Positions 770-28,652 of a stretch of DNA of 35,747 nucleotides are shown piece by piece. Position numbers and translations under genes: made by a program. Below the pieces are notes generated by a model, which was given only the letters and a program-made list of their open reading frames with translations, had not been told where the DNA came from and ran no database searches. The stretch is from IMG/VR virus record IMGVR_UViG_3300032334_000391, positions 1 through 35,747 of that record. The stretch is one strand, 5' to 3'. Every line of letters begins with the position of its first letter. Position 1 is the first letter of the stretch. This DNA comes from a virus.

Positions 770-929
770 GTTGTCCCTACGCATCCGTCCAGTTGTCGGT
801 GAACCATACGGCAGGGCTGGAGGACAGGCGCTACTGTGGGAAAGGTCTGAGAGAGCGCAAGGGGTGGCGAAGATAGTGCCCCTGACCGAACGACTGTCGG
901 GTATGTGCGGCTCCGTCCGGCATTGAAGG

Positions 930-1053: not shown

Positions 1054-1878
1054 ATGAACCCATTCCTAATTGATAGTCCCACATGCATCAGCTTTAGCGG
1101 TGGACGCACTAGCGCCTACATGCTCTGGCGGGTACTGGAAGCTAACGGGGGACTACCCGCAGAAGCCATAGTCTGCTTTGCCAACACGGGGAAAGAGGAT
1201 GAGGCCACGCTGCGGTTTGTCCAAGACTGTAGCGAACAATGGAACGTCCCTATAACTTGGCTAGAGTACAGGGCAGATGGGTATGCGGTGGTGGACTATG
1301 AGACAGCCAGCCGTGACGGGGAACCTTTCGAGGCGCTGATACGAAAGAGAGGGTTTCTACCTAACCCTGTCGCTAGATTCTGCACTGTGGAACTGAAGGT
1401 CAGGACAATCCACAGATACCTTAAAGCCAATAGCTGGACAACCTGGGACTCTATGCTTGGCATACGCGCAGATGAACAGCGCAGGCTGGCGAAGATAGGC
1501 AATCAGGACTATGGCAAGCATGAAGAGAAGGTAGCCCCGTTGGGGCAGGCCGGAATTACTAAAGACGCTGTAGGGGCTTTTTGGAGGGAGCAACCCTTTG
1601 ACTTGGGTTTACCCAACATGAACGGGGTAACCATGCACGGCAACTGCGACCTGTGCTTTCTCAAGGGTGGGGCACAAGTCCTTAGCCTGATAACTGAGAA
1701 GCCAGAGCGTGCCGTATGGTGGGCAAAGATGGAGGCGTTGGCGTTGGCGTCTAAACCTAGTGGTGCGGTGTTCCGCTCTGACCGCCCCAGCTATGCATCC
1801 ATGCTGCAATTCTCCCAGGAGCAACGGGATATGTTTGACCCTAACGAAGAAGCCATAGCCTGCTTCTGTGGAGACTGA
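1054..1878 (+). CDS. PAPS-reductase-like PP-loop protein
   Basis: 274 aa, about the usual size of the phage members of the PAPS reductase/adenine nucleotide alpha-hydrolase superfamily. The PP-loop is SGGRTS at residues 15-20, followed by a strand and CFANTGKEDEAT (about 41-52), the second nucleotide-pocket segment of the fold. Cysteines occur in RFCTVELK, in HGNCDLCFLKGG and in the C-terminal CFCGD, a set that could hold an Fe-S cluster or zinc. Family knowledge supports ATP or PAPS binding and adenylating or sulfur-transfer chemistry; the substrate is unknown. There is no neighbouring dnd-type gene, so DNA phosphorothioation is not supported. It is the first gene of the second plus-strand unit. 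Confidence 0.85.
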   Translation: MNPFLIDSPTCISFSGGRTSAYMLWRVLEANGGLPAEAIVCFANTGKEDEATLRFVQDCSEQWNVPITWLEYRADGYAVVDYETASRDGEPFEALIRKRGFLPNPVARFCTVELKVRTIHRYLKANSWTTWDSMLGIRADEQRRLAKIGNQDYGKHEEKVAPLGQAGITKDAVGAFWREQPFDLGLPNMNGVTMHGNCDLCFLKGGAQVLSLITEKPERAVWWAKMEALALASKPSGAVFRSDRPSYASMLQFSQEQRDMFDPNEEAIACFCGD

Positions 1879-26592: not shown

Positions 26593-26611
26593 GTTTGTAC
26601 CATATACAAAC
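26593..26611. repeat. Inverted repeat inside promoter
   Basis: GTTTGTA (26593-26599) and TACAAAC (26605-26611) with a five-base centre. The palindrome covers the -10 box and spacer of the candidate capsid promoter, a typical operator position. No regulator can be assigned. Confidence 0.5.
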
Positions 26612-26621
26612 GGTTTGTCAA
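26594..26621 (-). promoter_or_regulatory. Candidate capsid-cluster promoter
   Basis: On the minus strand a perfect TTGACA (26621-26616), 16-base spacer, then TACAAA (26599-26594), four of six matches to TATAAT. The ATG at 26573 with its AAGGAG is just downstream, leaving a very short leader. It would give the scaffold/capsid genes their own start inside the late block. Confidence 0.5.
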
Positions 26622-26670
26622 TAGTGGCGGTTATTTTGCATCCAACCGCCAATGATGTGCTGCTCTAGGC

Positions 26671-26692
26671 AATCAAGGTTTTACCCTTGATT
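26671..26692. other. 8-bp inverted repeat
   Basis: AATCAAGG and CCTTGATT with a six-base loop, directly after the basic micro-ORF at 26691. There is no T run after it on the minus strand, so it is a weak candidate for a terminator; it may protect the end of the upstream message before the capsid promoter. Confidence 0.4.
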
Positions 26693-26729
26693 ACTTGCGA
26701 GACTTACGTCCTTTACGACCTTTACGCAT
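26691..26729 (-). CDS. Micro-ORF: basic 12-aa peptide
   Basis: MRKGRKGRKSRK, eight Lys/Arg in twelve residues, with a perfect AAGGAG six bases upstream of the ATG. An upstream in-frame ATG would give MKERIMRKGRKGRKSRK but would remove the Shine-Dalgarno from the leader. It is in the same frame as the 13-codon basic ORF at 26802, separated by three stops. Either a translated peptide that binds DNA or RNA, or the remnant of a broken gene. Confidence 0.45.
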   Translation of the reverse strand: MRKGRKGRKSRK

Positions 26730-26756
26730 AATGCGCTCCTTCATCAAGGCGGCCAC

Positions 26757-26780
26757 TTACTTACAAGGGGAAGCAGCCAT
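26757..26780 (-). CDS. Micro-ORF: 7-aa peptide (doubtful)
   Basis: MAASPCK, with AAGGA seven bases upstream. It lies between the two basic micro-ORFs, in the same frame. A leader-peptide function or chance are both possible; this is the weakest of the three. Confidence 0.2.
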   Translation of the reverse strand: MAASPCK

Positions 26781-26801
26781 ACCCTATTCCTTACGGAATT
26801 C

Positions 26802-26843
26802 TTACCGACGAGTCTTACGACCGCGCTTTGCCATTTTGTACAT
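26802..26843 (-). CDS. Micro-ORF: basic 13-aa peptide
   Basis: MYKMAKRGRKTRR, with a perfect AGGAG six bases upstream and a TAA stop. It follows the 57-aa gene by 16 bases in the late operon. The core KRGRKTRR resembles KGRKGRKSRK of the peptide at 26691, so the two may be a duplicated pair. Strong initiation signals for such a short frame are unusual. Confidence 0.45.
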   Translation of the reverse strand: MYKMAKRGRKTRR

Positions 26844-26859
26844 GAGAAACTCCTGGTAA

Positions 26860-27033
26860 TCAACGGCGGGCATAGTCACGCTGACTGCGCCCTGCATAGT
26901 TTTTAACCCCGTCCTGACGGTATGTCAAGGAGGGAGCCGCTTCTTTTCTTTGCAGAGATGATGTATTCACACGGGGCTGGTCTGCCTTGGGTTGCGTAAC
27001 CCCTGCGCGGGATGAGCCTGGTGTGGTTGCCAT
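26860..27033 (-). CDS. Small basic hypothetical protein
   Basis: 57 aa. Two adjacent ATGs overlap the portal stop (ATGATG); the second (27033) has AAGGAG at a better distance. Hydrophilic and basic (SSLQRKEAAPSLTYRQDGV, then KNYAGRSQRDYARR). No family recognised; probably disordered. Tight coupling to portal supports a head-assembly-related role. Confidence 0.65.
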   Translation of the reverse strand: MATTPGSSRAGVTQPKADQPRVNTSSLQRKEAAPSLTYRQDGVKNYAGRSQRDYARR

Positions 27034-28652
27034 CATTTCTCCTTGGGTGGTGGGCCTGGAGGCTTAGGTGGAGCAGAGGCGGCTTTCTCAGCCTGCTTCG
27101 CTTCCATCTTCTTGAGCCTGTCCTTGAGTAATTGTTTCATGGGCGGCTCCAGCAAGTCAAGCAAGGACTCCTTGTCGATTGCCTGCGCCTTGAACAAGTT
27201 GAACGCCAGTTGCCGCAAGTCTTCCGTGAAAATGGGACTGTTGCTGTGTGCATCCACCTTGACCACAAAGTCCTTGGTGAATTGTTCGGCAATGAACGGC
27301 AGACCTTCACTGTCTTTGAAGTGCGTGTTGTCATACGCTTGCATACACTTGAGGTACAGCGTAGCCAACTTCTCCAAGCTGTCCTCGACAACCAGCGCAC
27401 GCTTCTTAGCGCGGCTGCTACCCATGCGGGCAAGCTGGCTGGCGTGACCAGAGGAGCGGACACCCGCCTCGCCCTTGCCTTGCAGCACGTTGCCAATGCC
27501 GGACACTTCCTCGAACATTTGGTCTATCTGCGTCAACTCTTTGAACAAGTCCGGCGGGATGGTAGGAGCCAGCTTCTCAACCTTGGCGTTGGGCATGTCG
27601 GTTGCCAGCAAACCACCAGCGCGGTTGAGCGCAAAGTTCTTCTCATCCAAGATGCCCGTAAAGCCAATCAACGCCGTGGGCGGCGAGACTTGTTTGCTCA
27701 ACAGGTCAAGGATTTCAGCCAGACGTTTTGTCCGCAGTTGCTGTAGGTAGACCAGACGCGCAACCTCTGATTGACCCCAGTAGTAGTCATACAGCGGGTT
27801 GGGGCAAACTTGGATGAAGGGCAGTTCGCCTTTCAAGAAGACCTGTTCGCCTGGGCGGTCATAGATGATGATGTCGGGGTCAGCGCGGGTGACCACCTGG
27901 TAGTCAGAGGTGTCATCGTTCCACACCCACAACTCAATCATCTCCACAGTCTCTTCCGACACCGTGGCCTTGTACTTGTTGTTGCCAGCAAGGTCGAGGT
28001 TGACGTTACCGTACATGGTTGGGTTGGACGCAGACAGAATGATGCGCTCTACCCCGTTGGCTACTTCTGTGCGCTCATGCTGCGTGGCACTCACACGCTT
28101 GACAATGGCATCACGGTTGGGGTGAGCGTACAACCGAGCGTACAACTCCGACTTGGTGATGTAGTAGCTCTGGACAATGGCCTCTTGCCTGTCGGTGTAC
28201 GGGGTGTCTTCTCGCAACACGCCCATGCTTCCAGGCTCCACCATGTACGGGTGAATGCCGTTGTTGATGATGAGCTTGACAAAGGTGGACGAGTAAGCCA
28301 GCGACCAAGACACTGCTTGCGAGAACACCTGGTCAGCATTGCTGTTAAGCCACTCATCGTTGAGTGCGCGGGTCAGCGTGGGAATCTTGCGGTGTTCCAA
28401 CTCATTGACCGCCGCACCCAGGTTGATGGAGAAGCGGGTTGTCTCTGCTGAATACAGAAACGAGGTCAGTTGGTCAATGTGCGGAAAGATTTTGTTGAAG
28501 ATGGCGGGCGTTTCACTAGGCCCGTTCCCAAAGAGATACCAGCTTCGCAGGGAAGCATAGTCAGGGCGGCGTTCTTCCCGAGAGACTAGACACTTCTGTA
28601 TCAAGTCAAGGTAGAACAATTCCCTCTGTAGTGGCTCTTTGGGGATTCTCAT
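27033..28652 (-). CDS. Portal protein
   Basis: 539 aa, the usual size for podovirus portals. QELF-type N-terminal helix region, WYLFGNGPSETPAIFNKIFPHIDQL, a wing region (YKATVSEETVEMIELWVWND, RADPDIIIYDRPGEQVFLKG), the stem segment (YYWGQSEVARLVYLQQLRTKRLAEIL) and the helical crown (SSGHASQLARMGSSRAKKRALVVEDSLEKLATLYLKCM). The last 40 residues are a basic then Pro-rich tail. It would form the dodecameric gate through which the terminase packs DNA. Confidence 0.85.
   Translation of the reverse strand: MRIPKEPLQRELFYLDLIQKCLVSREERRPDYASLRSWYLFGNGPSETPAIFNKIFPHIDQLTSFLYSAETTRFSINLGAAVNELEHRKIPTLTRALNDEWLNSNADQVFSQAVSWSLAYSSTFVKLIINNGIHPYMVEPGSMGVLREDTPYTDRQEAIVQSYYITKSELYARLYAHPNRDAIVKRVSATQHERTEVANGVERIILSASNPTMYGNVNLDLAGNNKYKATVSEETVEMIELWVWNDDTSDYQVVTRADPDIIIYDRPGEQVFLKGELPFIQVCPNPLYDYYWGQSEVARLVYLQQLRTKRLAEILDLLSKQVSPPTALIGFTGILDEKNFALNRAGGLLATDMPNAKVEKLAPTIPPDLFKELTQIDQMFEEVSGIGNVLQGKGEAGVRSSGHASQLARMGSSRAKKRALVVEDSLEKLATLYLKCMQAYDNTHFKDSEGLPFIAEQFTKDFVVKVDAHSNSPIFTEDLRQLAFNLFKAQAIDKESLLDLLEPPMKQLLKDRLKKMEAKQAEKAASAPPKPPGPPPKEK

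Follow-up and report, generated by a model that had tools for sequence, protein, structure and literature searches.

Tandem basic micro-genes and a conserved RNA pseudoknot beside the portal gene in a large family of freshwater phages

Two very short genes, here named A and B, were found between the portal gene and the capsid block in a viral DNA of 35.7 kb (the whole stretch analysed, hereafter the window), and the comparison with relatives identifies them as genuine conserved genes, far beyond chance. The explanation that we favour, with slightly better than even confidence, is that they are genuine micro-genes encoding trans-acting polycations that bind nucleic acid, likeliest in packaging or head assembly, and that a pseudoknot in the RNA between them tunes B. 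A frame of 12 codons normally escapes gene finders and homology searches, and comparative evidence suffices to reveal free-standing genes 9-16 codons long.

Organisation of the locus

The genes of the locus are all encoded on the minus strand, as are the features given below, in the order portal, 58-aa gene, A, pseudoknot, B, 160-aa gene, 61-aa gene, 176-aa protein and major capsid protein. The stop of the portal gene (28652-27033; SU10_portal, phrog_1216) is overlapped by the 58-aa gene (26860..27036, with AAGGAG), which is the upstream neighbour of A and has clear homologues at the equivalent position in most relatives. Micro-gene A (MYKMAKRGRKTRR, 13 aa, net charge +7) occupies 26802..26843, its stop following MYKMAKRGRKTRR, and its Shine-Dalgarno (SD) sequence AGGAG (26850..26854) is 6 nt from the ATG, a spacing found in most relatives. 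Micro-gene B (MRKGRKGRKSRK, 12 aa, +8) occupies 26691..26729, the stop again following MRKGRKGRKSRK, and is preceded at the same distance of 6 nt by AAGGAG (26736..26741), which is also seen in relatives. The first-pass annotation had placed both frames exactly at these positions (26843-26802 and 26729-26691) and with this SD spacing.

A small hairpin predicted by folding, AUUCC-GUAA-GGAAU (26786..26799), lies 5' of the pseudoknot, and hairpins of the CCCGCAAGGG type occur in relatives. Downstream, a candidate hairpin AAUCAAGG-GUAAAA-CCUUGAUU (26671..26692) holds the stop codon of B and has a counterpart at the equivalent place in many relatives. A second candidate, GGCGGUU...AACCGCC (26626..26650), recurs with differing sequence in relatives and stands directly 5' of a promoter-like TTGACA-16-TACAAA (26594..26621), upstream of the 160-aa Pro/Ala-rich gene (26573-26091) which is the next gene after B. 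Of 204 intervals, 173 have TTGACA 3' of the last micro-ORF, where shuffling predicts 6.1, and this conserved element is the probable promoter of the capsid block. A consensus promoter scan reported no site at the promoter-like TTGACA of the window. In the window and at the equivalent places the element has a spacer of 16-18 nt to TACAAA, TCTAAT or TTTAAT, and the hairpin before it varies in sequence.

The micro-genes had been described as lying between portal and scaffold, which is roughly right. Upstream are the portal gene and then the 58-aa gene, the next gene downstream is the 160-aa one, and the likelier scaffold would be the 176-aa helical protein encoded just before the capsid gene, for which a family search gave no match.

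Elsewhere in the window, positions 785-902 (+) give a full-length match to the Rfam Betaproteobacteria-1 RNA (RF02932; 96 bits, gathering 49), which hints at a beta-proteobacterial host. The host search in genome contigs gave only two contigs, one in a beta-proteobacterial MAG and the other in a Legionella MAG, and these pointers toward beta-proteobacteria are weak. A phosphoadenosine phosphosulfate reductase-like gene (phrog_424), possibly an auxiliary metabolic gene, is located at 1054-1878 (+).

Conservation and coding selection

One scan of IMG/VR with the portal protein gave 588 relatives, and the phages belong to a very large freshwater family; two complete relative genomes, from Manatee Spring, were present in the phage collection. 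All fetched micro-gene loci belong to this one family, among whose members portal identity goes down to ~62%. Loci retrieved by a peptide pattern are bound to show conserved peptides, and those fetched by micro-ORF patterns were therefore kept separate; the unbiased set consists of those fetched by portal similarity alone from five starting points.

At least one basic micro-ORF was present in all 219 distinct portal-to-next-gene intervals (two in 161, one in 54 and three in 4). In the two batches that were fetched first by portal similarity, 101 of 103 distinct intervals have exactly two basic micro-ORFs; their shuffled versions contained 0.043 per interval, or 0.003 when ATG and SD were required, and the reverse strand contained none. 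The suspicion that A and B exceed what is expected of chance frames is therefore borne out by relatives and shuffles alike. In the first portal-fetched set of 155 distinct intervals, the last basic micro-ORF (B position) was present in all 155 and a second one, in the A position, in 142, and in the larger set 12 more intervals have an A-type gene alone. When two degenerate micro-ORF patterns were searched against 2.9 million viral contigs, only this family and locus appeared among the matches listed. No such micro-ORF was found around the head genes of seven phages, Mx8 and BUCT555 among them, that are distant relatives but have a related capsid protein, so that this head type does not need the micro-genes.

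In the window A and B are the sole frames of 8-20 codons, on both strands, that have an SD and at least 45% Lys and Arg. Across the family the peptides are ~9-16 aa long, Arg and Lys make up more than half of them, and the net charge is mostly +7 or +8; that of B is +8 in 139 of 155 intervals despite length variation. The Lys and Arg content is 56% in A-position micro-ORFs and 63% in the last basic ones (155 distinct portal-fetched intervals), and the SD spacing in relatives is mostly 6 nt for both. Moreover, 92% of the Arg codons of B are CGT or CGC, compared with 46% in eleven genes of the window, which is suggestive of the bias typical of strongly expressed genes. The ORF list also offered longer starts, giving 31 aa for A and 21 aa for B, and these were rejected as they are not kept in relatives.

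Selection was estimated on the portal-fetched set, which replaced a first estimate from peptide-pattern-fetched loci, using the changes along minimum spanning trees; these omega values are approximate counts made without a codon model, though the contrast is large. In frame, omega was 0.21, 0.20 and 0.49 for A of 13, 14 and 12 codons (the last with just 11 distinct sequences), and 0.24 and 0.25 for B of 12 and 13 codons. The shifted sense frames of the same stretches gave 1.7-3.9, and in the main length classes four of the five alternative frames gave 1.4-3.9 against ~0.2-0.3 in frame. Changes at codon positions 1/2/3 numbered 61/36/158 in A (13 codons) and 9/11/34 in B (12 codons), third positions being dominant, and the lengths of the micro-ORFs differ by whole codons. 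The comparison of related phages that had been proposed as a check thus favours the genes: start, SD spacing, stop and basic codons are kept across relatives and synonymous sites vary. Conserved start, SD and stop together with in-frame purifying selection are the marks of conserved small protein-coding genes of phages, and A and B bear them. Among the earlier options, that of translated DNA- or RNA-binding peptides gains from this codon-level selection, from the fixed SD spacing and from the micro-ORF in every relative, the binding itself being presumed.

In the two GenBank relatives (L002 4740-5038 and L001 4668-4928; MW202753 and MW202825) antisense hypothetical proteins are annotated across this region and A and B were missed.

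Pseudoknot upstream of micro-gene B

The stretch between A and B holds GGG-U-R-U-GGCUGCUU-CCC and then AAGUGGCC, and the loop pairs with the downstream strand. In the window this H-type pseudoknot (26751..26785) has one stem, S1, formed by 26785-26782 with 26769-26766, and another, S2, formed by 26778-26771 with 26758-26751. S1 occurs in relatives as AGGG/CCCU, CGGG/CCCG, UGGG/CCCA and GAGG/CCUC, and S2 covaries as GGCUGACU/AGUUGGCC, GGCUGCAU/AUGUGGCC, GGCUGAGU/ACUUGGCC, GGUUUCUC/GAGAAACC and UCCUGCUC/GAGUAGGG. In 34 diverse sequences, hand-trimmed around S1 and S2 with a few rows off by one column (which lowers and does not raise the count), 89.4% of the cells pair in fixed columns versus 43-60% when slid. 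Changes on both sides, i.e. compensatory, were seen in 9 of the 12 pairs, and the observed covariation was reached in none of 500 shuffles; two central mismatches of S2 are found in about one third of the sequences. An automatic pseudoknot search with free choice finds 8/8 helices in ~1% of shuffles, for which reason the fixed-column count is taken as the basis of the claim.

The nested-model fold of this region of the window was no better than shuffles (z -0.34), and the Rfam 15 covariance models gave no relevant match to it. A nested alternative pairing is possible in the window; among 47 distinct contexts S1 has full pseudoknot pairing in 35 and nested pairing in 9. The 3' end of S2 is most often 21 nt, and mostly 15-23 nt, from the ATG of B, which places the pseudoknot just 5' of the SD of B, as in pseudoknot-controlled initiation.

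The seven-codon frame reported between A and B (MAASPCK*) does exist, with AAGGA at 7 nt. As a gene it was rejected, since in relatives it often starts with GTG, has no fixed SD and is part of the pseudoknot. The idea of a string of three peptides therefore holds for A and B, whereas the covariation identifies the middle member as part of a conserved H-type RNA structure and not a conserved ORF.

Gain and loss of micro-genes

A has been lost with pseudoknot and B kept in L350, L311, L369-L373, L382 and L305, and all 12 A-only intervals (MDKKMKRGRKCRR and the like) are without pseudoknot, so that on this comparison the structure belongs to the cassette of B. In L412 a 9-residue gene (MRKGRKCRK) is kept and the pseudoknot is absent. 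The loci with three micro-ORFs include L409, without recognisable pseudoknot, and L381 and L495, which have it. On the portal tree the number of micro-genes has changed at least 12 times and is never zero among the intervals seen, and the sole survivor can be an A-type or a B-type gene. This pattern, along with the changes in number, suggests interchangeable, dose-like products acting in trans.

The basic codons of A are intact in L382 and the ATG is missing, which may represent a gene undergoing loss or a sequencing error. L312 carries an insertion between A and the pseudoknot, a gene of 51 codons that has its own SD, starts MSDGQSKEDVKEVDREFERTKRDILSG and has a basic Ser-rich C-terminus, and in L022 an extra 70-codon charged gene is found between the portal gene and the 58-aa gene. 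Small genes seem to be acquired at this portal-adjacent site.

Possible functions

According to the favoured explanation, A and B would each be translated from their own SD into a polycation of 9-16 residues which would bind nucleic acid electrostatically and in trans, with packaging of the genome or assembly of the head, late in infection, as the likeliest occasion. The pseudoknot, ending ~21 nt before the start codon of B at the edge of the footprint of the initiating ribosome, would tune the translation of B. The micro-genes close the terminase-portal block on its 3' side and precede the promoter-like TTGACA, a position that suggests late expression with the packaging genes, and the composition and position of the peptides are consistent with DNA binding inside the head.

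The reading of the locus as a stop-readthrough product or a decayed gene came from the three frames that share one phase in the window, where the 51-codon run with three internal stops is indeed present. This common frame is nevertheless due to chance, as the phase from A to B is 0, 1 and 2 in 43, 23 and 35 of 101 relatives and a fused product is thus impossible in most of them. Both versions are excluded by the variable phase together with the whole-codon length differences; the stops are conserved and each frame is under purifying selection, across portal identities down to ~62%, and in L312 a whole gene follows A. The probability left to this reading is close to nil. It is scarcely greater, and still very small, for a real gene on the antisense strand of which A and B would be the mere shadow. 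The GenBank annotations in MW202753 and MW202825 are of such antisense hypothetical proteins, a frame of at least 45 codons covers B in 137 of 219 intervals, and the antisense frame sharing third positions has an omega of 0.33-0.37. However every class has a lower omega in the sense frame (0.23-0.30), and the antisense ORF varies in length from 13 to 146, has mostly TTG or GTG starts, an SD in just 21 of 219 and no consistent phase; it is open because Lys and Arg codons rarely give antisense stops.

Selection on the peptide fits action in trans as well as action on the translating ribosome and does not separate them. The peptides could therefore act in trans without being structural, as arginine-rich binders of host or phage RNA (ribosome, RNA polymerase, antitermination) or as autoregulators via the pseudoknot of B. 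Their composition resembles arginine-rich RNA-binding motifs, the charge is strictly conserved and the pseudoknot sits at the ribosome-binding site of B, but the genes are located in the packaging and head block and the A-only loci offer no pseudoknot to bind, and we regard this role as unlikely, though it is the most probable of the alternatives. Somewhat less probable is a role in cis as leader or arrest peptides, in which a polybasic nascent chain would slow the ribosome, remodel the pseudoknot or the downstream hairpins and so control a neighbour gene. Very short frames with strong SDs next to a conserved RNA structure would suit such a role, polybasic chains slow ribosomes, and in ColIb-P9 repZ a leader is reportedly coupled to a pseudoknot. 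On the other hand, the pseudoknot persists in loci that have lost A (L350, L311, L369, L382), a whole gene can separate the two (L312), the number, type and order of the micro-genes vary, with A-only loci devoid of pseudoknot, and a separate promoter-like site stands between B and the next gene.

Within the favoured trans role, a more speculative version, to which we give slightly less credence than to the cis role, is that pseudoknot and B form a self-contained RNA-peptide module of ~120 nt, in which a 12-residue polycation controlled by its own pseudoknot would also bind it, so that the module would itself adjust how much is made of a peptide condensing or marking the head DNA. If true, it would rank with the smallest autoregulated genes on record. 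The family is a clean system in which to ask whether tailed dsDNA phages use short polycations with their packaged DNA, and which role a conserved pseudoknot plays ahead of a 12-codon gene.

Comparison with known systems

No homologue of known function was found for A and B, and a literature search on basic phage micropeptides gave no precise precedent. The J protein of phiX174-like microviruses, of about 24-38 aa with a capsid-binding C-terminus, may be taken as the nearest functional analogy, since both are tiny, strongly basic phage products encoded among head genes, and A and B would likewise serve as counter-ion for the packaged DNA if the favoured explanation holds. It is an analogy only and fails on the tests that were run: J belongs to ssDNA phages, whereas the genes of the window include those for a terminase, a portal and a major head protein of tailed-phage type; A and B have 9-16 aa, usually come as two tandem genes and are basic through the final residue, with no non-basic tail or hydrophobic C-terminus of the J type.

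For the RNA, the nearest analogy would be pseudoknot-controlled initiation, as in the leader of T4 gene 32 and in ColIb-P9 repZ, whose pseudoknot was reportedly described by Asano and Mizobuchi in 1998 (cited in PMC10724649). In both an H-type pseudoknot lies upstream of the SD, as at B, and repZ also has a short upstream ORF. The locus differs from these in that the downstream gene B has only ~12 codons and no Rfam model matches. In the repZ type the pseudoknot forms only if an upstream leader ORF is translated, whereas here, on the comparison of relatives, it is retained where the upstream A is lost. Bacterial leader peptides of attenuators resemble A and B in their size of about 10-20 codons, strong SD and adjoining RNA structure. 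A and B, unlike these, are not fixed upstream of one gene, number from one to three and conserve overall charge and not one regulatory amino acid.

Small phage genes are said to have been predicted from metagenomes by Fremin et al. in 2022 (Cell Rep 39:110984, cited in PMC11323111), and that catalogue, like the present family, concerns phage genes that are conserved and very short and that annotation had overlooked. The A/B family may already be listed in published catalogues of this kind; what sets it apart is the tandem polycationic pair together with the conserved pseudoknot.
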